A stretch of DNA of 64,000 nt, from positions 4,820,563 to 4,884,562 of the forward strand of contig LR990048.1 in assembly GCA_905147135.1 (NCBI GenBank), read 5' to 3'. The stretch is from Blastobasis lacticolella (Eukaryota; Arthropoda; Insecta; Lepidoptera; Blastobasidae). The notes beneath the pieces are model-generated. The model did not search any database, was not told where the DNA came from, and was given only the letters and a program-made list of their open reading frames with translations. The position numbers and the translations under genes were made by a program. Below are positions 31,087 through 57,411 of this stretch, piece after piece (within the stretch, counting starts at the first letter, position 1; each line of letters opens with the position of its first letter).

Positions 31087-31735
31087 CAAAGAGATTGGAA
31101 TGTTAGCGACCTTCATGGTTATAGAAGAGTGGCCCTGAAGGGTAAAATGCATGCTACCCGTCAGTTTGACAATCATTTTTTTTGTCAGACGCAATGAGGA
31201 GTTTTCCAGTAGGTATTGATTGTTTGTTTTAAAAAGCATCAATAGATGGCGCTCCCACAATTTTGGTAATCTTCTTTAAATCTGTATAATGGTGGCAGTG
31301 ATTTCATGCAGCCAAGTAATACTAAACTTGAAAATAAAGTGTTTATTAATAAAAACATCACTGTGAAAGGTTGAACGAAGTGTAAAAAGAAATATTTATA
31401 GAAGGTGGCACTATGTTCCATTATTATTACAACCTCTAAAATGGTTGAAAACTATTGACCAATATAATATTATCCAATACAATATACCCAGTGTTTATAT
31501 CCTGTTTGCTAAGAACCTATTTCAAGCGATTATCAATTACCAAAATTGTCGGGGTGCCATCTAGTGAGTGGTTAGGAATGCCTTAAATACCTATTGGAAA
31601 ACTCCTCATTGTAAACAAACAATTTCAATTTATTTATTGGTAAAATATTTTTATATTTTGTGTTATAGGCTTTGTAATTTTATTAAATTTAAAAATTAGA
31701 CTGGCAAGAAGGTCGCTAACATTCCAATCTCTTTG
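31087..31735. mobile_element. hAT-type non-autonomous element with nested MITE
   Basis: Perfect 28-bp terminal inverted repeats (31087-31114 and 31708-31735) beginning CAAAGAGATTGG, flanked by an exact 8-bp duplication GTAGGTAT (31079-31086 and 31736-31743). The 8-bp duplication and CA-start ends fit the hAT superfamily. No transposase. A 418-bp MITE (31193-31610) sits inside and accounts for most of the length. Confidence 0.85.
31193..31610. mobile_element. MITE copy nested in the hAT element
   Basis: Same family as 53775-54188: terminal inverted repeats AATGAGGAGTTTTCCAGTAG and its near-inverse at 31587-31610. It contains GATGGCGCTCCCACAATTTT near one end, shared with the other copy. Confidence 0.85.
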
Positions 31736-37617: not shown

Positions 37618-40600
37618 GTCAGCTGTACCTTGTTTACTGCACTGTTTTTGTTTACCCGGCTTGGTTGTGATCGTGAATTTTCCTGTTAACAAATCTCTAA
37701 TCAACTTTTTTTTCTAAGACTGTCTTAACATAAAATACGATACTATGCTCACAAGTGGTATTGAGCCGCTGAGTCAGCGGAGGGATTTCGCCTCCCTTTG
37801 TGTGTTCTACCTTATTATCTGATTTGCTTGTACAACGGTGTTTGTTCTGAAGAACTGTTTGACATGATGCCTACAGCTACATTCTTTCATCGCACCGCTC
37901 GCCATCGACAGGGAGTTCAACCTCACACCTTGGAGCCAAATTGGTCGCGAACTGTGCGGTTCCAAAGGAACTTTCTCCCACGCACACTAAGGTTGTGGAA
38001 TGAACTACCTGGAGAGGTTTTCCCTGGAGAGTACAACATGGAGTTCTTCAAGAAAGGGGTTAAAAGGTTTTTACGGGGTCGGCAACGCGTGGGTGATGCC
38101 CCTGGTATTGCAAACGTCCATAGGCTGCGGTGACTGCTTACCATCAGGCAACCCGTAAGCTTGTTTGCCACCTTGGTGGTATAAAAAAAATAGAAATAAA
38201 ATTCCCAACACATTCAGCCCAAACTTCTCTTGCTTTACTAATCATTCTCGTTCCTACGTTAATAACACATAATTATCTAGTGTTCTACTTATTTTACGAC
38301 AGTAACCTACTCGATACGAGCTTTCTGCATAACGAAGGACTTCTCCGAAATATAATTACCTACTCATTCCTTCCCGAGCAGTGAACACTGGCGTGAAGTA
38401 CCAGACGATATCGTCGTCATCCGTGAGCCTGGGCTACGGCGGTGCGCAGTACGCGGCTGAGCTGAAGGGGGAGCAGCGCGACAAGCGAGAGTACCGGGAG
38501 GATCTCCACCATGACATCATGGCCACTATGATGCAACAGCAAGGTGGGGATTCACTAGTTTATAGACATTCACCAAATTTTCTCCTAATGTTCTATTAAA
38601 ATAGCCCCCACCCCCAATAACGCCCCCTTCCACTACGAGCCCCTTAGAAATACGGGTGTTCCGTTCATTGTGGTATTGTAAATATGTATGGCCACGATAC
38701 AGGGACCACAAGATAACCGATCCATGTAACTAACATTTATCTAGGGAATTTCATAGATATAATAAGTAAGTATTAAGTACCAAACTTAGGTACTAAAACT
38801 TATAACAATCAAACTACTGCAACCATTTCTATTATTTAATTTGTATTTGCTGTTTGGTGTTCGTTAGAGTAGACTAACAGCATCCAATTCGACTTACTAC
38901 TTATACAACTTACTTGTGTTGCACAAGGCGACTATATGACCCGGCTAGGACCTTCGTCGACCCGAAAATGGACAGCAGCGTATTCTGTTGATTGTTTTTA
39001 AACAATGAAATCTCCAACATCACGTCTGCCAAGCATGGAGTAGAGATTATTTCAAGCCCTTTCAGTCCAGCAGTCAATACTGTGAACTGTTATGGTTTTG
39101 ATGTGATTTAGGTACATTTTATTTATAAGATTTAACACACCTCGCTTGAACGTGTGGACTGTATCAGACCTAATCAGGGGTGAGGCGCGCTTTTATTGGT
39201 AAACTCGATCATCATCATTATCACAGCCTATAACAGTCCACTGTAGCACTTAGGGCCTCCCCACACGAAAGGGGAGGTTATTGCCATAATCTCCACGCTT
39301 GGCAGGCGGGATAGAGGTCGCAGTATTATAAATATAACAATGGATAAAGCTGCTGCCCGTTTTCCACCCTACGGAGACGCTAGATCATTTGCCTCAAAAC
39401 ATTAGTCGCCTTGCACGACACCCACGAGTGTACGGCTTGGTGCTATTCTACTCTGCCGACACCACACGGCCAGGTAATCTCGATGTACGCTGTATATCTA
39501 CACCGACAGTCCATAATCACAGCGTGTGTTCCCAGTCTCGCAGGCGCCTCTGAGCATGGGTACGCAGCAGCTAGTGGTAGTGCTGGCCGATCCGAAAGAC
39601 GCAGCGCTGCGGCCGGTCAAGCAGGAGGCGCGCGCCGACCGAGCCATTGGGCCCAACGATTATATCAGTGAGTACAACCCACCACCACACAAGGTATCGT
39701 CCTTTGGGTCATACTACAACTGGTAACAGACGCGTCGATTTGGCTGGAGCTGACACACCGGCAGTTGCAGTGGATACTAATCCTTACTTTGTACAAAATA
39801 AGGTTGCTATTGGATTAATGCGGATTTACGGGCGAGTTGACCTTGGTCGGCCGTCCGACCATGTCCCCCGCACCCAAAGCGACTTTATTTTATACTGCGT
39901 AAGGATTAGTATCAACTGCAACTGAAGGTTGGTCAGCTCCAAACAAAACGTCTGTTACTAGTTTACGGATTGCGTCACAATCATGGAAGGTGCGCGCGCT
40001 ACTTGACGAGCTACCGGGCGCGCGCACTTGACTTCAAACCACTCTCGATCACACAGTGAGTGGACTTATAGAGTCCACAGTTCAGTCTGCTATTTGGAAA
40101 ATGAAACTACTTACTCTTCCTTCCGTGAGGGCCGTACCATCATCTCATTGGCCCAAGCCAACCTCATCTACTCGTGATGGTCAGTGCAAGCAATTACGTT
40201 TTGCGAGTTTATTAGGTAAATGTTATGAAATATTTGCTCAGCTTCTACTTTGGATAACCACACTATAACTATAAAACAAAATTTCATCTAAATCGGTGCA
40301 GATAAATAAATTACCTTCGCATTTATAATTAAGTAAAAAAGGAAGGTTTATTTATTTTAAGTCCAACGTAATTTCAACTTCATAACCTCATACAGATTGA
40401 CTGCCGTAGAATATCGAATCTTATTTTAATTAATATAATAGCAAATAAATTATTTAGATACCTTAGAACAAAAGATGAACCATCTTAGAACCCTAAGAAA
40501 CCGTTTTTATCTCCTCCTTCTTCTCCTATGACCCTACACAGCTGTCAACCTCTCCGGCTTGGGCGACGTGTCGGACGCATCCTGGCAGCTTGGCAGCGTG

Positions 40601-43600: not shown

Positions 43601-45540
43601 ACAGAAAAAAAGAAATTGTGTGGAAGGGCACAGTCTCAGTTTACGCTGAGAGCTAAAGGCCTGCAGCACTGATTTTCAGACTGCCCCTGACTTTATCAGT
43701 AATATATATTTGGAATAGCAGGATACTATTTGCAAGCAAACATAAAGTAGGTAAATGATACCTAGTACGAATTTAAATTTTAAATTAATTTCAAGCTACA
43801 CTCTTTTACAAAAAAACAAAAAATAATCTTAACCGAAACCAATAATACATACTTAATTCAATATTTCCATAGCTTACAGTAATTTTAATATTATAATGTT
43901 AGAAATACAGTAACTAGTAGTTATGTGTTCATATAATTAGTACACTTTCCTTCTGTTGCTCAAACAGAGCTCTCTTAATGTGCGATTTAAAGGTTAATTG
44001 GGATATTAGATGTGGTTAATTGAGATGGCGCTGTGTGAATTTGTCCAAACATATTTATTTATTTAAGCATATTTAATGCATCCTTACGTTAGACTAGACA
44101 GCCGGCCGGAGGCACTCACTGCACGCTTGGCGCCTCGCGTGGCAGCTTCGCTACTGGCTAACCACTAGCCAAGCGACTAGCTAGGCTCAAATGGTGGATT
44201 TCACCATCATGGCGCTTGATCTTACCGTGTGCGAGATAAAAATTTCCGTCAAGTGGCATGTCCTTCTAAAATTTCTCCCCACACACGGTCATTTTGGTTT
44301 TTTCAAGGGTACTTTATCCTTGCTACCTACTGTATCAAACGGCAAGATGGTCAGTGGCCACCATAAGCAAGCCATCTTTCAGTATGACCATATTTCTATA
44401 TCAAAGAAGTTTATATAATTGAAGTCTGAGCTGTAAGCGGTCTCGTACACGTTCTTTTGGGACTGCTATCTATCAGGTAAACTGTCTGACAATGTGCCTC
44501 TCTAGGTTATAAAAAAATCATGCTAATATCATACTTTGATGGATAGTCATGCTGACCCCATTACGAGCGCAGTCGATGGAAATCGCAAAAGTTCATCCTT
44601 GCTTTCAAACTTTCGCATTTATTATGTAGGATATTTATGGCAGTGATGCCTTACCAGGCAGATTCCTCAAGCCAGAGTCACCACCGGTAAAACATGGTGT
44701 GACGACACGCACACTGAGGTTGTGGAATGTGCTCCCTGGAGAGTACAATACGGATTTCTTCAAAAAACAGGTTTTTACGGGTTCGGCAGCGCGTGGGTGA
44801 TACCCCTGGTATGCAAACGTCCTTACTACAGAGACTGCTTACCATCAGATAGGCCGCAAGCTTGACACCTTAGTGATATATAAAAAAACATTTTCCGCTC
44901 CCAGATTCATCTGTGACATCTGCAACGCGGCTCTGAAGCGCAAGGACCACTTGACGCGGCACAAGCAGTCCCACAACCCGGAGCGGCCGCACACCTGCAG
45001 CGTCTGCATGAAAGCCTTCAAGCGCAAGGAGCAGCTCACGCTACACTTTGTCATACACTCCGGCGAGAAGCGGCACGTGTGCACCGAGTGTGGGAAGGGT
45101 GAGCAATTCCTATTCATACTAAAATTCGTGATCTGTAGGCTAAATCCTAACCTCAATTAAATTAGACAAATTTTATTGGTACAGCACGCACACCTGCAAA
45201 ATTGCAGTTGCAAACACCACTCAGGAACCTAACTCAAATTGAACGTCGCCGTATTTAGCCTGTAGGGATAGGGACCAATCGCAGATATCATATAGCCGCT
45301 ACTCACTCTATATTTGTCAACTGTATGCACCTATGACGACGAAACAAATACATTGATTTATTGCAACAATTACCCATATCCCCAGGCTTCTACCGCAAGG
45401 ACCACCTTCGCAAGCACACGCGCTCGCACATAGCGCGGCGCGTGAAGGCCGAGCTGTCGGCGGGGGGCGCGGGGGCGGCGGGGGACGGGGGGCCCCCGCT
45501 CCCGGCCGCGGTGCCCGCGCCGCAGCCCGAACCCTCCTGA
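37374..45540 (+). CDS. Zinc-finger gene B: four-finger C2H2 protein, 8 exons
   Basis: Predicted 455-residue nuclear protein, a close paralog of gene A. Exons: 37374-37617, 38382-38543, 39536-39667, 40542-40756, 42374-42542, 43170-43266, 44905-45098, 45386-45540. All junctions are AG/GT with consistent phases. Residues 1-250 are alanine, glycine and valine rich with a VKQE SUMO-type site. A lysine run (about 280-295) precedes the fingers. Fingers: C315/C318-H331/H335, C343/C346-H359/H363, C371/C374-H387/H391 and C399/C402-H415/H419, the last being FYRKDHLRKHTRSH. The tail is alanine and proline rich, ending PEPS. It lacks the C-terminal PVQINIP-type module of genes A and C. Gene B lies about 8 kb downstream of gene A, same strand, and converges on gene C. 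The start MNFAPF matches gene A's MNFATF. Confidence 0.87.
37850..38200 (+). pseudogene. LINE 3' end (C-terminal tail), gene B intron 1
   Basis: The open frame reads FQRNFLPRTLRLWNELPGEV and FKKGVKRFLRGRQRVG, typical of the C-terminal tail of lepidopteran non-LTR elements, ending with the usual CCATCAGGCAACCCGTAAGC 3' end. Related fragments at 11440-11660 and 44650-44880. Confidence 0.65.
38382..38543 (+). CDS. Gene B exon 2
   Basis: CCCGAGCAG|TGAACA to CAGCAAG|GTGGGG, phase 1 in and out. It encodes VNTGVKYQTISSSSVSLGYG and a charged stretch KGEQRDKREYREDLHHDIMA; no domain recognised. Confidence 0.85.
39215..39475 (-). mobile_element. Diverged inverted copy of the (TGA)n-tailed retroposon
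   Basis: Begins with ATCATCATCATTATCACAGC, the reverse complement of the tail, and runs to the AGAATAGCACC-type 5' end. It lies in gene B intron 2, ending about 60 bp before exon 3. A further degraded fragment lies at 38925-39065. Confidence 0.6.
39536..39667 (+). CDS. Gene B exon 3, with VKQE motif
   Basis: TGTTCCCAG|TCTCGC to ATATCA|GTGAGT, phase 1 in and out. It encodes GTQQLVVVLADPKDAALRPV followed by KQEARAD. An alternative acceptor 8 nt downstream (CGCAG) would break the frame, so 39536 was chosen. A 246-bp inverted-repeat element starts about 50 bp after the donor. Confidence 0.83.
39718..39963. mobile_element. MITE with ~65-bp terminal inverted repeats, gene B intron 3
   Basis: Left end AACTGGTAACAGACGCG, right end the inverse of AACTAGTAACAGACG; both arms run to GATACTAATCCTTAC. 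246 bp, no coding capacity. A half copy is at about 46306-46432. Confidence 0.75.
40542..40756 (+). CDS. Gene B exon 4
   Basis: CTACACAG|CTGTCA to GCTACG|GTAGGG, phase 1 in, phase 0 out, 215 nt. It holds a short repeat (TGVAGVTGVA) and ends ALPAGAVPVAT. The LPLPLHHLLKYSADK stretch loosely resembles gene A exon 8. Confidence 0.83.
41199..41408 (-). mobile_element. SINE A fragment
   Basis: CATCATCTTGGCGTTAATGT through GTGCAGGTTTCATCAAGATG in gene B intron 4, truncated before the tRNA-like head. Preceded by a poly(A)-ended LINE tail at about 41100-41184. Confidence 0.6.
42374..42542 (+). CDS. Gene B exon 5: proline-rich and lysine-rich
   Basis: TTATTATCAG|ATGGTG to CTTTGG|GTACTT, phase 0 in, phase 1 out. 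It encodes DSPAPTPPPAPTS, then KKSKKKKKNGKEKK, a likely nuclear localisation signal. It matches the basic region fused to finger 1 in gene A exon 10; in gene B an intron separates the two. Confidence 0.87.
43170..43266 (+). CDS. Gene B exon 6: finger 1
   Basis: TTTCCCCAG|ACGGCA to GAGAGGAG|GTATGC, phase 1 in, phase 2 out. It encodes DGSTLY and finger 1 (CPECHMAYPERGLLQQHLLGH). A SINE begins about 20 bp beyond the donor. Confidence 0.88.
43288..44060 (+). mobile_element. SINE family B in gene B intron 6, itself interrupted
   Basis: The tRNA-like head has a B-box-like GTGTTCGATTCCC. The SINE body ends at GGGGCTAGAT (about 43502) and resumes at GATGGCGCTGTGTGAATTTG (about 44024). The intervening ~520 bp, starting AAGAATATTTATTTTTCCAC, is a later insertion of unidentified type. 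The SINE begins about 20 bp from the donor of exon 6. Confidence 0.65.
44650..44880 (+). pseudogene. LINE 3' end fragment abutting gene B exon 7
   Basis: Diverged copy of the same tail; its last recognisable bases lie about 25 bp before exon 7. Confidence 0.5.
44905..45098 (+). CDS. Gene B exon 7: fingers 2-3, start of finger 4
   Basis: CGCTCCCAG|ATTCAT to GGGAAGG|GTGAGC, phase 2 in, phase 1 out. It encodes finger 2 (CDICNAALKRKDHLTRHKQSH), linker NPERP, finger 3 (CSVCMKAFKRKEQLTLHFVIH), linker SGEKR and CTECGKG of finger 4. Confidence 0.9.
45386..45540 (+). CDS. Gene B exon 8: rest of finger 4 and C-terminus
   Basis: ATCCCCAG|GCTTCT to TGA at 45538-45540, phase 1 in. It encodes FYRKDHLRKHTRSH, a basic segment IARRVKAELS and a GC-rich alanine, glycine and proline tail. 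It is the terminal exon, unlike the corresponding exons of genes A and C, which splice on. Confidence 0.88.
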
Positions 45541-50051: not shown

Positions 50052-53000
50052 CTGGGAAAGAAAGGTATAAATAAGATAGATATACCAGCAGGTCTAGCCA
50101 ATATGCTACACCAAATATTTTGGACATAGAGCCTAGATGAAGTCTACTCACAGCCAGGCCTTACCATGAACTTTATAAAACGGTCAAATTTCCGCCAAGT
50201 TCAGTTGGCAAGACAAGCTTATGTGACACGTATAGCGTTGTCTCGTTCTAAGCAGAACAGTTTTGTTTAGGTCATGGTAAGCCCCCTGAACTCACAATCT
50301 ACATTTTCTTTCCCTTTTAATGGTACATATAACATATCCAAAGGCGGGTGCTAAAGTTACCAAATAGCCCTCCATAACCACCGCTGTTGTCAAATTTGGT
50401 GGCCTGGATCACCTAATGTTCTAACTTTCTGTATGATACTGAATTCATTTGTATAAAGTTGTGACAGTGTATATTCTCTTCCATGTGGTGTCCGGCAGAG
50501 TAGAATAGCACCAACCCTTACACTCATGGGTGTCGTAGAAGGCGACTAGTGTTTTCGAGGCAAAATATCAAGAGTCTCCGTGGTCTGGAAAATGGGCAGC
50601 AGCATTTTGCATTGTTATATTTAAACACTGCGATCTCCAACCCGCCTGCCAAGCGTGGAGATTATGGCAATAATCTCCCTTGTCGTGGGAGAGGCCCTAA
50701 GTCCTGCAGTGGACTGTTACGGGCTGTGATGATGATATTCTCTATAGGTCGAAGTTCCATCTATGATCTATGTTCAAAATCATGATGCCGCACGCTTCGT
50801 AGCAGGCCCCTTCACTGCCAACCCCACGAAGCACAGACCTCACTCCCAGTTGGTAACCTCTACTCACAGTGATAGTGATCTCCGGCTTGATCTCCGTCTT
50901 GACCTCGGCCTTGGGCGCCCGCCTGATGGGCACCAGCCCCGGGACGGCCTTCCGCTGCAGGTACGGCGAGCCGTCCGCCTTCACGCTGTTCGCCTTCATG
51001 TGCACTATGTAGTGCTTCTGGAGGTGGTCTTTGCGGTAGAAGCCTGGGAGTATATAATAGTTTATTGAGAATAGGAAATATATGGTACACGATATAATAA
51101 AGTAATAATTTACACAACAGGCTGTTTATGATAATTAGGTGTAATTGTGGGTAGTTCATTGTTTGCGTTACTTTTTTGGTGCAACAAAAGGAGGTCCTTT
51201 TTGGAGGGTATGGTGATCCAGAATATTAACAATGTTCTTTTCACCTCAGCAGCACGAAAAGAGCGCGTCTGTTGCGTGAAAACTCGCAGCAAAATGCTTA
51301 TTACACACGAGAGAAAATATTTTATGATTTATGCTTTTAAAATACTCTCTGTGCTCCGTAGTCGGGTAAATGAATCACTCGCTACGCTCGTGATTAAATT
51401 CTGGTCTACTTCGCTAGATCGTGATTTAAACGAGTCTCGAGACACTCACAACAAAAAGTAACATTGCTCTCTTGTATAACAAATAACTATTTTCAAACTT
51501 TAATAGGAATATATAGAGTCATACATTTCTTATCACGCATGACCAGCCTATAACAGAATGGGCTTTGTCGCGCCCGACTTCTTTCAATTTGCGTTGAAGG
51601 AAGAGTCTTGACACAAAGCCCATCTCGCAACGCAGGCTATTATCAAAAGATTAGAAATAAAAACAAAGAGAAAAAATCCCTCAAACCACCCACCTTTCCC
51701 GCAATCCGGACAGAAGAACGACCGCACGCCCGTGTGTATGTTCAAATGAATCTTGTAGTGGTCTTTCCGCTTGAACGGCTTGGAACAGTACTTGCAGACG
51801 AACACTTTCTGTGGTGTCGGCAGCGAGCGCTCGGCTGCTAACGCGGCGAGTGTCGCCCCGTTGCGAGACGGTGTTGCCACCGGGGCCACTTCAGAGACCT
51901 GTTGTAGTAATAACTTATGGTTGAGGGAACTGCGGCCTCATTTATTTATTTATTTTACAGTTTTACAGAAATCACAAGAGGTTTCGTTAATCTACAATCG
52001 TTTGTGGTAGAAAAAATGTGTGGGATTTGACATAAGCTAACGTTATCTGACATAAGCGGTTTGTGGTAGAAATTATTGGTCCATAGACAATTCACGCACT
52101 TTCGGTGTACAAAGGAGGCGGATTGGCGGATGATCCTACACAATCAGAGTCAATGTAGATGTTGGTACACAGCTCAGCGTAGTTTTGCGTGCCTCTTATT
52201 TGGTCTGAGGATCTACTTTTGGTCGCTGAGTCCAGCGCGGTAAGTACGTAGTATAAAATTTTAAACCATCGCGGTCATTATCACGTACTTCAAAATTATA
52301 TTCCGTGTTTCCTACCGCGTACCTTTGTTGCCGAGAAGCCCGATATTTCGACGCAACTGCATGCATCATGGTACGCGATAGGAAACCCGGAATATACTTT
52401 TAAAAATAAATAACTGACTAAGTGTACTGTCACCGATGACAGCTCCTGGCGCGAAAGCACAAGGACGCCCGACCCCAGCTAAACTGGGACAAGATCTGAC
52501 GGAAGAAGGACGAACACAGTGTTTTAAACTATCGCGGTTATTATCACACATTCTAAGGGTATGCTTCGGGTTTCCTACCGCCAACCTTTGTTGCCGAGTA
52601 GCCCGATGCATCACGGTCACGGGACGACTGTACTTAAGAAGTAGTGATACTAACATATGGCCGTGTGGTGACCGGCAGAGTAGAATAGCACCAACCCCTT
52701 ACGCTCATAGGTGTCGTACAAGGCGACTAATGTTTTCGAGGCAAAAGACATAAAGTCTCCGTAGTCTGAAAAATGGGCAGCAGCATTTTCCATTCTTATA
52801 TTTAAACACTGCGATCTCCAACCCGCCTGCCAAGCGTGGAGATTATGGCAGTAACCTTTCGTGGGAGAGGCCCTAAGTCCTGCAGTGGACTGTTACGGGC
52901 TGTGATGATGATACTAACATCAATGAATTCCGGCGGATAATCCGGCTGGTAGTCCCGTGCGTAGATGGGCTGGTACTCCGGCTGGTACTGGGGCTCGTTC

Positions 53001-56000
53001 TCCTTCTTGGCGTCGCCGGCCGCCGCGGCAGAAGCCTCGCACGCGTGTCGCTCGAATTGACCGTTGTCTTCGAAACCTGGTGGGAGATGGGAATAAAGAT
53101 AGGTGGATTTAAATGATAACGCAGTGAATTGCCCGTTGTCTTCGAAACCTGGTGGGAGATGGGAATCAAGTTAGGTGGGTTTAAATGATAACGCAGCGAA
53201 TTGCCCGTTGTCTTCGAAACCTGGTGGGAGATGGGAATCAAGTTAGGTGGGTTTAAATGATAACGCAGCGAATTGCCCGTTGTCTTCGAAACCTGGTGGG
53301 AGATGGGAATCAAGTTAGGTGGGTTTAAATGATAACGCAGCGAATTGCCCGTTGTCTTCGAAACCTGGTGGGAGATGGGAATCAAGTTAGGTGGGTTTAA
53401 ATGATAAGGCAGCGAATTGCCCGGTGTCTTCGAAACCTGGTGGGAGATGGGAATAAAGATAGGTGGATTTAAATGATAACGCAGTGAATTGCCCGTTGTC
53501 TTCGAAACCTGGTGGGAGATGGGAATCAAGTTAGGTGGGTTTAAATGATAAGGCAGCGAATTGACCGTTGTCTTCGAAACCTGGTGGGAGATGGGAATAA
53601 AGATAGGTGGATTTAAATGATAACGCAGCGAATTGCCCGTTGTCTTCGAAACCTGGTGGGAGATGGGAATCAAGTTAGGTGGGTTTAAATGATAAGGCAG
53701 CGAATTGCCCGGTGTCTTCGAAACCTGGTGGGAGATGGGAATCAAGTTAGGTGGATTTAAATGAAAAGGCAGCGAATGAGGAGTTTTCCAGTAGGTATTG
53801 ATAGTTGGTTTCAAAAAGCATCAATAGATGGCGCTCCTACAATTTTGGTAATCTTTTTTTTTTTGTATGATGGTGGCAGTGATTTCATGCGGCTAATACT
53901 AAACTTAAAAATAAAATGTTAATTAATATAAACATAACTGTTAAAAGGTTGAACGAAGTGTAAAAATAAATATTTATAGAAGTTGGCACTATGTTCCATT
54001 ATTACTACAACCTCTAAAATGGTTGAAAACTATTGACAAATACAATATTATCCAATACAACGTACCCAGTGTTTATATCCTGTATGCTAAGAACCTATTT
54101 CAAGCGATTATCAATTACCAAAATTGTCGGGGCGCCATCTAGTGAGTGGTTAGGAATGCTTTAGATACCTATTGGAAAACTGCTCATTGCCCGTTGTCTT
54201 CGAAACCTGCGAGATCGATGGGAATGTAAAGTTACGTGGGTTTAAATGATAAAGCGTCCTGTAATCATCACTTTTGCCATAGCATAAATAACGCCTCCCA
54301 ATAGCAGAACCTCGCGACTTCGTCTGGTCTTCGCCAGCACGGTATTCGTTCAATCCGTTCGGGAGCTGCGTAGCCATAGACAGCCACACAGATTCACTAA
54401 TACTTGTACCATCTCTCTTTTTTCATCGAATGTGAAAAAAAACCTTTGAGAAATATCCGATAAAACAGAATTTCACTGTTGCAAGAGCAGTAGTTCCTTT
54501 TCACGAGTTTCTTGCGAGACTAGGGTTACCCCTATGGGATTCGGGCGTGAGTGTGTATTATGATTTGTTGAAGCACTAGCTTGAAGCTTCTTTCAATACG
54601 CAACAACAGTTACCACAGCCTATGGACGTTTGCAATACCATTTACCGTTTGCTGATACGTGTATATCACTAGCACTGTGTCAGTCATTTATTTAGATAAT
54701 CCAGTCTGTTTTAGAAGATATTGACAGACGCACTTATGAAAATGAGAAAAAAAAATATAAACGCTTATTTGTTTTATGAATTAAATCACTTTTTGTACAC
54801 TAGTTCCACTTTATTATACAATTTTATTAAATTGCAACCGGTTTCGAATTACTCATCTTCAGGCAATTAGTTTTATATTGTTTTATAAGTGATTTAATTC
54901 ATAATAATGGAGTTCCATCATGAAGTGACAACGCAAAGTGTTAAATACTTATTTGTTTTGCTTAGGTAATAATACAAAGAGGAAATGCATTATCACGTGT
55001 ATGTAGGTAAAAAAAACAGTATCACATACCGTCCCCGCAGCTGGAACACCACACGCTGCAGTTAGCGGAGGCGGGCGCCCGCAGTCGCATGTGAACGCTG
55101 GCGTGTACCTTCAGATGCTGTTTCCTCTTGAACCGACGCCCGCAGATGTCGCACGCGTGGGGACGCTCGTCCGAGTAGTCCGGTCGGGGGACCAGCAGAT
55201 CTTCTATTGGCTGAGGAGGGGAGGAACGATTGAGAGCGTTGACAGGGGATTGGGAGCCCTCGAAGAGAACAAGCTGGAGTCCTTTAGAGGCAGAGTGAAT
55301 TGACCAATAAAAGTTCTATCCTCAGTCGTATCGTAGCTTACTATTAAATGATGCGGTCAAATGCTTGCCTAGTCTATATAAATATTATAAAGAGCAAAAA
55401 TTTGATTGAAACTCAAAAACTAGTTGACCGATTTTAAATATTATTTTGCCTAAACAGTGGCTAACTAGTTACAGGCTACAGTTTTACCCGAAATTCAATG
55501 TGGTTTTCACGGGAATGGGTCCGTAGTAACAGAAACTTACGCGAAAGAAGTGTAGTAAATCCTAGTAGAATCTCTTTTGCTAATTTTGTCATAGGCGATG
55601 CTAGAAGGAGCTTCGGAGCCTTACAGTGATTCAAACTGGTCAGGTTCCTGGTAGCAGGGTCACGGAGGTCACATGTCAGTCGCTCCACTGTAATTATCTG
55701 ATCTGCCAAATCCTGGATCATGGTCAAGACGGATTTATTATTTATTTATCATAGTCCATGCTGAGGTTTAGCCGTAAGCTGCAGACATGGTCATTTTCGC
55801 ATTTTGCAATATAAAGGGTTGTGTAATTTCATATCTCAGCGATATCGGGTGACCAGTTATAAATAATCGCTCTTTTCTTGTACAAAAAACACGAGGCGCA
55901 CCCTCAGGGGTCGTCCCATTAATCATGTGAGCTGAGCACCATATAGGGGGGTTCTTTTCTAACATCACTATCGATCACAATGGGGGGAGGGAGGAAGTTG

Positions 56001-57411
56001 CTATATTAGGTTATTACCTATGAAATTGACGTTGTGTATGCCGAAAATGATGTAACTGGAAGCCAATGTTTCAATTTCTTGGAAATGGCCAATCCGATTA
56101 CGATTTAACTTTGTAGGTATAATCAAATAACATATAACTAACTGGTGTATACCATTTCATTTTGATAACTACCCTTTTAATAAAATTACGTCTACTAAAA
56201 GTGGGTAAAACTGACGACAAATGAAAAGGGGAAATTTCAAACCCCGTTAAACACTTTAAGATGTTTTTTTATTCAATTTTTGAGACTTATGGGATCTAAA
56301 CTTACCTACTCTATTTTAGAAGTCGAGTATTAATTTTGATATGTTATGTAGTACAAATAAAAATATTTCAGCAAATGTGTAATTGCGAAAAAATCGCCAA
56401 TTCCCGCCAAATCTCGAATGTCGTGCCGTGCAGTACGATGCAAGTAACCCGAATGTGACGTAGGCTCTTTGTGATATCGTATTTATTGGCAGTATCCGAA
56501 CGACCTACATTCTCATTGGATACCTGATTCTGTGTTCTTATAATATCATAGAGAGATAGATCTGTAGGTAGATAAGGAATATAGTAATTGCCAAACTTAA
56601 AGGCTGCATCTCTAAAAATCTACCAAATGTTTAATGTTGCACGAGGCTTAAGCGGCAAATAAAAATGCTTCTTTATAAGCCGTTCTGAGCAAGTGCGTAT
56701 ACTTAAATATATCCTAAGCTGTCGTTTAATGTAACAAAGCTAGGAACCGTCTCAAATTGGTTTTCAAATATAACAACCGTATCGAAATCGGTCCAGAACT
56801 TCTGTAGCTACGATGGCACATGCAGACACACATATAGACACATCATTTTTATAACACCGCTCTTTTTTCGTCGGGGTTTAGTGCGAGATGAGAGAGTAAC
56901 TCTGAGTAGAAAAATGGTTACCTCACGTGCTTAACGTTGGAATAGTATGTTTGCCAAATGGATGTCGATTTGCTATTTCCAACAAATAGCAAAGCATTCT
57001 TTTTCCAGGTGAGATAACTATCAAATACCTTGCTAGTCTAATAATAATAATAAAAGAGAAGTGTCCGATTAGATACGCGCTGCGTAACTCTCGAGTTTGA
57101 CCTTGGGCTATATGGTTACAGGACATAGCTCCATAGAGCTAACCAATGAAAGCATCAACAACCCTTCCGCCGAGCACAGAACCGCGGTTTCGACCGCATA
57201 CTTTCTCATCCTTGTTCAAAACCAGTTACGTTCAAAGCCCTTCCTTGTACGAAACCAGCTGCTAACACAAGTGAACACGTTCCCCTCACCATGATCCCGA
57301 TGTTGTGCTCGACGTAAGGCTCATCGCCGCCGCTGTCCCGCAGCCCATCGCGTAGCCCGGAACGCAGGTGCGTACTCATGTGGTTCAGCAGCTGCTCCTC
57401 GCGGTGGAACG
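49941..57411 (-). CDS. Zinc-finger gene C: 3' part of a C2H2 zinc-finger gene, 6 exons seen
   Basis: The visible part encodes the last 317 residues. Exons in transcript order: 57411-57290, 55210-55030, 53076-52919, 51898-51694, 51043-50868, 50051-49941; all AG/GT, phases consistent. It opens in the middle of a finger (AFHREEQLLNHMSTH) whose cysteine pair must lie on an upstream exon. Then follow finger CDICGRRFKRKQHLKVHASVH, a degenerate C2HC finger (CSSCGDGFEDNGQFERHAC), a tyrosine, proline and glutamine-rich linker (EPQYQPEYQPIYARDYQPDY), and fingers CKYCSKPFKRKDHYKIHLNIH and CPDCGKGFYRKDHLQKHYIVH. The C-terminus carries VKTE and IKPE SUMO-type sites and PLQIKVPYQVV as in gene A. No exon with the missing CxxC and a fitting donor was found up to 64000, so the gene extends beyond the window. 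It converges on gene B. Confidence 0.85.
50484..50736 (+). mobile_element. (TGA)n-tailed retroposon, second copy
   Basis: Close copy of the element at 52663, in the last-but-one intron of gene C, ending in GATGATGAT about 130 bp from the donor of exon n-1. Some single-base differences from the other copy. Confidence 0.75.
50868..51043 (-). CDS. Gene C exon n-1: last finger and SUMO-type sites
   Basis: Acceptor ACTCCCAG|GCTTCT (phase 1) to ATCACT|GTGAGT (phase 0). It encodes FYRKDHLQKHYIVH and a basic linker ending APKAEVKTEIKPEITIT. The intron position before FYRKDHL is identical in genes A and B. Confidence 0.88.
51694..51898 (-). CDS. Gene C exon n-2: finger and start of last finger
   Basis: Acceptor CTACAACAG|GTCTCT (phase 0) to GGGAAAG|GTGGGT (phase 1). 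It encodes VSEVAPVATPSRNG, finger CKYCSKPFKRKDHYKIHLNIH and CPDCGKG. Confidence 0.88.
52663..52912 (+). mobile_element. (TGA)n-tailed retroposon adjoining the gene C donor
   Basis: Non-autonomous retroposon starting GTGTGGTGACCGGCAGAGTA and ending in a short GATGATGAT tail. Second copy at 50484-50736. The flanking ATACTAACAT at 52647-52656 and 52911-52920 is its target-site duplication. The right-hand copy spans the 5' splice site of gene C exon n-3 (minus strand AT|GTTAGTAT), so the donor now exists twice. Confidence 0.8.
52919..53076 (-). CDS. Gene C exon n-3: degenerate finger half and tyrosine/proline linker
   Basis: Acceptor CTCCCACCAG|GTTTCG (phase 1) to CATTGAT|GTTAGT (phase 0), 158 nt. 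It encodes FEDNGQFERHAC, completing a C2HC-like finger, then AAAAGDAKKENEPQYQPEYQ and a tail ending PPEFID. Its acceptor and first 22 nt are tandemly repeated upstream (53077-53786), and its donor is duplicated by a retroposon target-site duplication downstream. Confidence 0.85.
53050..53786 (-). repeat. 72-bp tandem array of splice-acceptor units
   Basis: Ten acceptors spaced exactly 72 bp: first-exon-base positions 53076 (the real one), 53148, 53220, 53292, 53364, 53436, 53508, 53580, 53652 and 53724. On the minus strand each unit contains the first 22 nt of exon n-3, a spacer, a branch-point-like CTAAC (or CTATC in variant units), a pyrimidine tract and CCACCAG. Variation among units is limited to a few substitutions, so the array is young. 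A MITE (53775-54188) interrupts its far end, and one diverged unit survives beyond it (acceptor near 54206). Confidence 0.92.
53775..54188. mobile_element. MITE with ~24-bp terminal inverted repeats, in the 72-bp array
   Basis: Ends are AATGAGGAGTTTTCCAGTAG and the inverted TACCTATTGGAAAACTGCTC plus ATT. It is 414 bp and close to the copy at 31193-31610. The uninterrupted array sequence GCGAATTGCCC shows the empty site; the junctions fit an AT dinucleotide duplication or insertion between A and T without duplication. Confidence 0.85.
54775..54902. repeat. Inverted repeat pair, MITE-like
   Basis: ATGAATTAAATCACTT at 54775-54790 and its exact inverse at 54887-54902 in a gene C intron. Contains ACCGGTTTCGAATTACTCATC, a common style of insect repeat core. 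Confidence 0.5.
55030..55210 (-). CDS. Gene C exon n-4: complete finger and CSSC of next finger
   Basis: Acceptor CTCCTCAG|CCAATA (phase 0) to GGGGACG|GTATGT (phase 1). It encodes PIEDLLVPRPDYSDERP, finger CDICGRRFKRKQHLKVHASVH and the cysteine pair CSSCGDG. A second AG within the exon (CCAATAG) is a less likely start. Confidence 0.85.
55590..55735 (+). mobile_element. SINE A fragment, opposite orientation
   Basis: Contains the reverse complement of the SINE A core (CACTGTAATTATCTGATCTG, then GATCATGGTCAAG) in the gene C intron between exons n-5 and n-4. Confidence 0.55.
56060..56410 (-). repeat. Interspersed repeat, inverted partner of 33590-33895
   Basis: Reverse-complement copy of the 33590-33895 repeat, in the gene C intron between exons n-5 and n-4. 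Confidence 0.65.
57290..57411 (-). CDS. Gene C exon n-5: second half of a finger
   Basis: Acceptor CCTTTCCAG|CGTTCC (phase 1) to ATCATG|GTGAGG (phase 0). It encodes the histidine half of a finger (FHREEQLLNHMSTH) and a linker ending EPYVEHNIGIM. Confidence 0.83.

Follow-up and report, generated by a model that had tools for sequence, protein, structure and literature searches.

A 72-bp minisatellite across a predicted intron-exon boundary of a C2H2 zinc-finger gene resembles the splice-site mirages of amphioxus

Tandem repeats whose units straddle the boundary between an intron and an exon are rare but already described: in amphioxus they have been termed "mirages", with Adh3, the globins and TnC as examples and PGBD5 likened to them, according to the relevant sections of two papers (PMC3087553, PMC3902484). 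Here we describe a minus-strand minisatellite of this kind, with ten contiguous 72-bp units and a diverged eleventh, that precedes an exon of a split C2H2 zinc-finger gene in Blastobasis lacticolella; the window, in whose coordinates all positions are given, is a stretch of 64,000 nucleotides of contig LR990048.1. As in the amphioxus mirages, tandem units cross an intron-exon boundary (in our case a predicted one) with their splice signals retained. The closest case found is the globin BflGb6 mirage, which, in the account given in PMC3087553, likewise runs from the 3' part of an intron into the beginning of exon 2, carries splice signals in many units, and has undergone concerted evolution that spares the border units. 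The BflGb6 units are 150-160 bp long, number 6 and 3 in two haplotypes, belong to a chordate, and were studied by reverse-transcription PCR (PMC3087553), whereas the units described here are 72 bp long, number 10 + 1, lie in an insect-like host, and are interrupted by a miniature inverted-repeat transposable element (MITE), with splicing deduced from the DNA.

Other described systems differ in size and in their effect on splicing. The Adh3 mirages of amphioxus, as summarized in a section of PMC3087553, are minisatellites over the exon-intron boundary with units of 10-72 bp, reported to leave splicing intact and to show length and somatic instability; the authors of that paper infer undisturbed regular splicing for the Adh3 and globin mirages alike, and a passage of PMC3902484 states the same for the lancelet Adh and TnC repeats. 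The TnC repeats receive only a mention there, while the lancelet PGBD5 splice site carries an imperfect repeat of low copy number (3 x 108 bp; PMC3902484). Variable internal tandem repeats that sit at exon-intron boundaries of human genes do change splicing, with 27 intron modifications recorded in recent paralogues, often as new introns, and a study-wide mean of 30-bp units in 4 copies (PMC2812944); these leave room for a functional effect at the locus described here. The original prediction knew of no described case with this many units in register; boundary-spanning arrays as such have been published for amphioxus and human, and the features of the present one that seem to be new are its insect-like host, the eleven copies, and the near-equality of the competing acceptors. 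Our literature search returned no insect boundary-spanning acceptor array among the matches listed, which is no proof of absence given that most subscription literature lay outside the search; two further candidates, PMC7536079 and PMC12783039, were set aside because the passages seen in them concern other subjects and not arrays of this kind.

Tandem Repeats Finder places the contiguous array at 53053..53777 on the minus strand, with a period of 72, 10.1 copies, 95% matches and 0% indels. In splice-site register all ten units consist of 50 nt of intron 3' end followed by 22 nt of exon start, and the first exon bases of the corresponding acceptors (53076, 53148, 53220, 53292, 53364, 53436, 53508, 53580, 53652 and 53724) are spaced 72 bp apart throughout. 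The splice signal AG/GT (the slash marks the border) is present in the ten contiguous units and also in the eleventh copy, and around it 18 intron and 12 exon bases are invariant in 10 of 10 units. A 27-mer spanning the acceptor has ten matches in the window with up to 3 mismatches permitted, all of them exact, against a mean of 0 in 100 shuffles, and elsewhere in the 64-kb window no match to the unit was found. These results bear out the original prediction of ten 3' splice sites in a 72-bp register before a single exon. Its count of ten is right for the contiguous units, and becomes eleven if a diverged distal copy (54186..54256, minus strand, acceptor 54206, 86% identity over 70 bp) is included; within its interval for the array, 53050..54262, the segment 53778-54185 belongs to a MITE-like element rather than to the array. 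Variation within the array is small: 8 of the 72 columns are variable, the ten units differ from each other by 0-7 of 72 bases, and six of the nine upstream units are identical to the majority unit or one base away from it. Conservation is not clearly higher in the exon part of the unit than in its intron part, with variable sites at 2/22 and 6/50 and a mean pairwise difference of 0.032 and 0.051, respectively.

Two types of unit can be recognized. Seven units read CCTAACTTGATT, giving TAA in the gene frame, while the three with acceptors 53076, 53436 and 53580 read CCTATCTTTATT, which contains no stop. CTAAC occurs at -23 in the seven units only, with CTATC in its place in the other three; all ten share a yUnAy match (TTGAT or TTTAT) whose A is at -18. 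The claim that every unit is a 3' splice site is sound insofar as the local parts of one are present in each, and the ten contiguous acceptors are equal in local sequence; the accompanying claim that every unit contains CTAAC is true of 7/10 and fails for 3/10, among them 53076, the acceptor needed by the gene.

The consequences for the reading frame depend on the acceptor. Splicing to 53076, in the proximal unit (53055..53126, minus strand, CTATC/TTTAT type, free of in-frame stops), would produce an exon of 158 nt. Use of 53148, in unit 2 (53127..53198, minus strand), would lengthen this exon to 230 nt, in frame and with no stop, and insert 24 residues inside a degenerate finger: the 24 sense codons expected from the original prediction are indeed recovered by frame analysis. 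From units 3-10 (53199..53774, minus strand; acceptors 53220 to 53724) exons of 302 to 806 nt would result, with a premature stop in 8/8 cases, 255 to 759 nt short of the end of the exon (for 53652 and 53508 the stop falls in the second added unit), and from 54206 a TGA stop is met at the MITE junction, so that the stops foreseen for the units further upstream are found for all nine. Transcripts with a stop far before the next junction are expected to undergo nonsense-mediated decay, a process that in insects relies less on junctions than it does in mammals. Decay would therefore be expected for transcripts from the upstream acceptors, whose stops are well short of that junction.

The host is a split C2H2 zinc-finger gene, insect-like to judge by the appearance of the sequence and its repeats, for which we propose five minus-strand exons (57411-57290, 55210-55030, 53076-52919, 51898-51694 and 51043-50868). 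All have AG and GT at their borders and fitting phases (1-0, 0-1, 1-0, 0-1, 1-0), and are joined in frame through 53076 into 280 open residues, in which PF00096 is matched at 58.9 bits (cut-off 25.2) over 3 stretches. The most upstream of these putative exons (57290..57411) opens partway through a finger, whose second half it encodes; the next (55030..55210) carries one C2H2 finger identified with Pfam, followed by the half finger CSSCGDG and the donor ACG/gtatgt at 55029. Behind the array, the predicted exon 52919..53076 begins with FEDNGQFERHAC and ends at the donor GAT/gttagt at 52918; its portion beyond the repeat has a GC content at third codon positions of 0.80 in the gene frame and of 0.42 and 0.70 in the other two. 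Downstream, a candidate exon (51694..51898, phase 0 to phase 1) has the half finger CPDCGKG at its end, and the acceptor of the one after it (50868..51043) occupies the same place in a split finger as 53076, since the finger is interrupted at the same point (CGxG/F) at 53076 (CGDG/F) and at 51043 (CGKG/F). This recurrent split-finger junction, together with the second-half start at 57411, supports the view that 53076 is ancestral among the acceptors. A degenerate finger, CSSCGDG/FEDNGQFERHAC, spans the 53076 junction and gives a weak match to PF13894 (16.1 bits, below the cut-off of 27); in the model with the 53148 insertion of 24 residues this match is gone, none being found up to E 0.1. A protein search with a 113-residue query returned 5 candidates, none at E<=0.001.

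We consider it probable (at roughly 0.7) that the array is a tolerated mirage minisatellite in which 53076 is the dominant acceptor and upstream use is mostly cleared by decay. The intron 3' end and the first 22 exon nt, 72 bp in all, would have been duplicated in tandem by unequal exchange or slippage, with the spliceosome mainly taking 53076, the acceptor closest to the donor downstream. If 53148 were used now and then, the degenerate finger would gain 24 residues; leaky use of the remaining acceptors would lead to nonsense-mediated decay, through a stop that precedes the end of the exon by 255 nt or more, and the array would then be tolerated as nearly neutral, its unit number free to drift. 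Predominant use of 53076 is suggested by the position of the exon between long introns and by the short 158-nt exon that this acceptor yields. In PMC9225289 exon definition is assigned to introns above 250 nt, an architecture that would apply here because the flanking introns of 1953 and 1020 nt exceed this length; the same paper reports that in human the choice of sites at long introns shifts towards the pair closest across the exon. The argument from intron length amounts to a lean towards 53076, not a proof, and the published mirages are probably a better guide to splicing at this locus: it is because the amphioxus mirages are reported or inferred to be spliced undisturbed that we prefer a tolerated array with 53076 dominant.

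Several points weigh against this interpretation. CTAAC is missing from 53076, whereas 7 of the remaining 9 contiguous units have it, so that a view based on the branch point would favour the upstream copies. In human, according to PMC9225289, 3' sites at least 20 nt apart favour the upstream site overall, a preference that long introns significantly reduce. Use of 53148 preserves the reading frame as 53076 does. Finally, acceptor use is deduced throughout from genomic DNA, with exon borders placed by frame and motifs rather than by transcripts or homologues. The array offers a natural test of how the spliceosome chooses among many acceptors with the same local sequence, given that in the ten contiguous copies the main remaining variable is position, plus the small branch-point difference; and as an apparent insect case joining the boundary-spanning minisatellites of amphioxus and human, it would fit a general mutational outcome.

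The history of the array is partly recorded in its distal end. The interior is homogenised and the border copy diverged, which is the turnover pattern of a mirage minisatellite; against it, the unit types are scattered and neighbouring units show no excess similarity (permutation p 0.65; at lag two p 0.14). Acceptor 54206 sits 482 bp beyond 53724, the intervening space being occupied by a MITE-like element of 408 bp (53778..54185, minus strand) that was recognized from its terminal inverted repeats, its junctions and other copies, and that is inserted in a unit: the CAATTCG of the unit is interrupted, with CAAT on one flank of the element and ATTCG on the other, an arrangement that fits a 2-bp AT target duplication (53776-53777 and 54186-54187). 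The MITE and the duplication account for 410 of the 482 bp (408 + 2 + 72 = 482), and without them the spacing is again 72. Since the element landed inside a unit, two or more units must already have been in register when it inserted, an argument that does not extend to the age of the other nine. Compared with the majority letters of 13 other copies, the array copy of the MITE shows 6 differences in 403 scored columns (columns with fewer than 5 other letters or less than 70% agreement were left unscored), and this divergence implies that the array is old, at least in part. The mutation rate in Heliconius is 2.9e-9 per site per generation, at which the insertion would date to about 5 million generations ago, a rough lower figure because most of the 13 copies come from best-matching loci. 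The genome contains at least 138 stretches matching the MITE (40 of 1735 first-look candidates scored), and one further copy, about 92% alike, lies in the window at 31196-31607. This copy is flanked by AAT and ATT, as is the one in the array, which suggests an AATT-like target. At four (L002, L003, L004, L006) of the seven best-match loci fetched (L002-L008), the MITE adjoins at least one further copy of itself.

The alternative that survives best is a regulated multi-acceptor switch, in which unit number and acceptor choice would set the amount of functional protein, the 53148 isoform having a broken finger and the upstream acceptors acting as poison extensions. It would draw on the local equality of the ten contiguous acceptors, on 72 being a multiple of three, and on the 53148 insertion being in frame and stop-free where the next eight are not. 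We nevertheless regard it as unlikely: the published mirages leave splicing intact in the parts of the two reports that deal with it (PMC3087553, PMC3902484), three of the ten units are of the CTATC type, so that the stop-free one could owe its proximal place to chance, and the closeness of the six upstream units to the majority looks more like homogenisation than tuning. The more specific idea of a splicing rheostat driven by a variable number of tandem repeats, with up to 11 acceptors, ten of them locally identical, whose number would determine the fractions of intact-finger, 24-residue-insertion and decayed transcripts, appears slightly less probable still, dose-tuning through unit number being possible but unsupported, as is the suggestion in the original prediction that splicing could start from several units.

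That the length or even the presence of the array is an assembly artefact, due to a falsely expanded or collapsed repeat, we judge quite improbable. Misassembly is common for short near-identical units, and the amphioxus BflGb6 mirage was itself aberrantly assembled in the draft genome (PMC3087553, in the section on this gene); against this, the units here vary at 8/72 columns and fall into few types, the assembly of 577 Mb in 45 contigs suggests long reads, and the array contains the MITE, whose junctions fit.

Nascent intron gain or recursive splicing, with each AG/GT serving as both acceptor and donor so that the array would be removed piecemeal or be on its way to becoming new introns, is very unlikely. 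The signal is there in each unit, passages of PMC3087553 propose intron gain from mirages and one in PMC2809761 names tandem duplication as a source of introns, and ACG/GTCAAT, found in two units, agrees with the donor consensus at 6/9 positions, as many as the predicted donor at 52918. By this crude score of consensus matches, however, CAG/GTTTCG behind the acceptor reaches 5/9, with 0/4 after the GT, and so does not qualify as a recursive site, whereas the five predicted donors score 6 to 8 of 9 with at least 3/4 after the GT. The 18 GTs in the ten units comprise 10 CAG/GTTTCG (5/9), 6 TGC/GTTATC (3/9) and 2 ACG/GTCAAT (6/9), and the distal copy has CAC/GTAACT (7/9) at 54235, upstream of its own acceptor 54206; from these scores a cassette exon inside the array was likewise judged unlikely. 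A coding array, read through the units as a repeated peptide, has hardly any credit and was rejected, because the minus-strand frame that stays open over 315 codons (52873-53820), its openness across all units following from 72 = 3 x 24, is not the frame of the exon, in which 7/10 units contain TAA. This wrong-frame open reading frame spans the whole array and could be misannotated by a gene finder.

Two checks of background were made. A crude acceptor criterion (pyrimidines, the -3 base, and yUnAy with no AG in between) passes 12 of the 78 AGs in the intron, namely the 11 array copies and 53937 in the MITE; it also passes 32/3441 AGs on the minus strand and 45/3384 on the plus strand of the window, and only one of the five predicted real acceptors (53076). 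With so few of those acceptors and so many background AGs passing, it is a poor detector, and no inference was drawn from it. In 200 kb of the same genome, sampled as 20 stretches at regular places on five chosen contigs, there were 0 loci with a period of at least 40, at least 5 copies and 90% match; the rule of three sets the upper bound at about 15 per Mb, a rate at which many chance overlaps of arrays with acceptors would be possible.

Two further features of the window can be mentioned. A dispersed repeat of ~260 bp (52658-52918) starts 0-6 bp from the donor at 52918, so that repeats flank the exon behind the array on either side; it is also found at 50481-50737 and 39214-39472, and among 22 fetched stretches (L009-L030) 9 contain it almost complete and 3 others (L016, L027, L030) in part. 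On the plus strand, an open frame at 44801-45160 shows by eye C2H2-like finger motifs with the half finger CTECGKG at its end, and is possibly a relative of the minus-strand zinc-finger gene.
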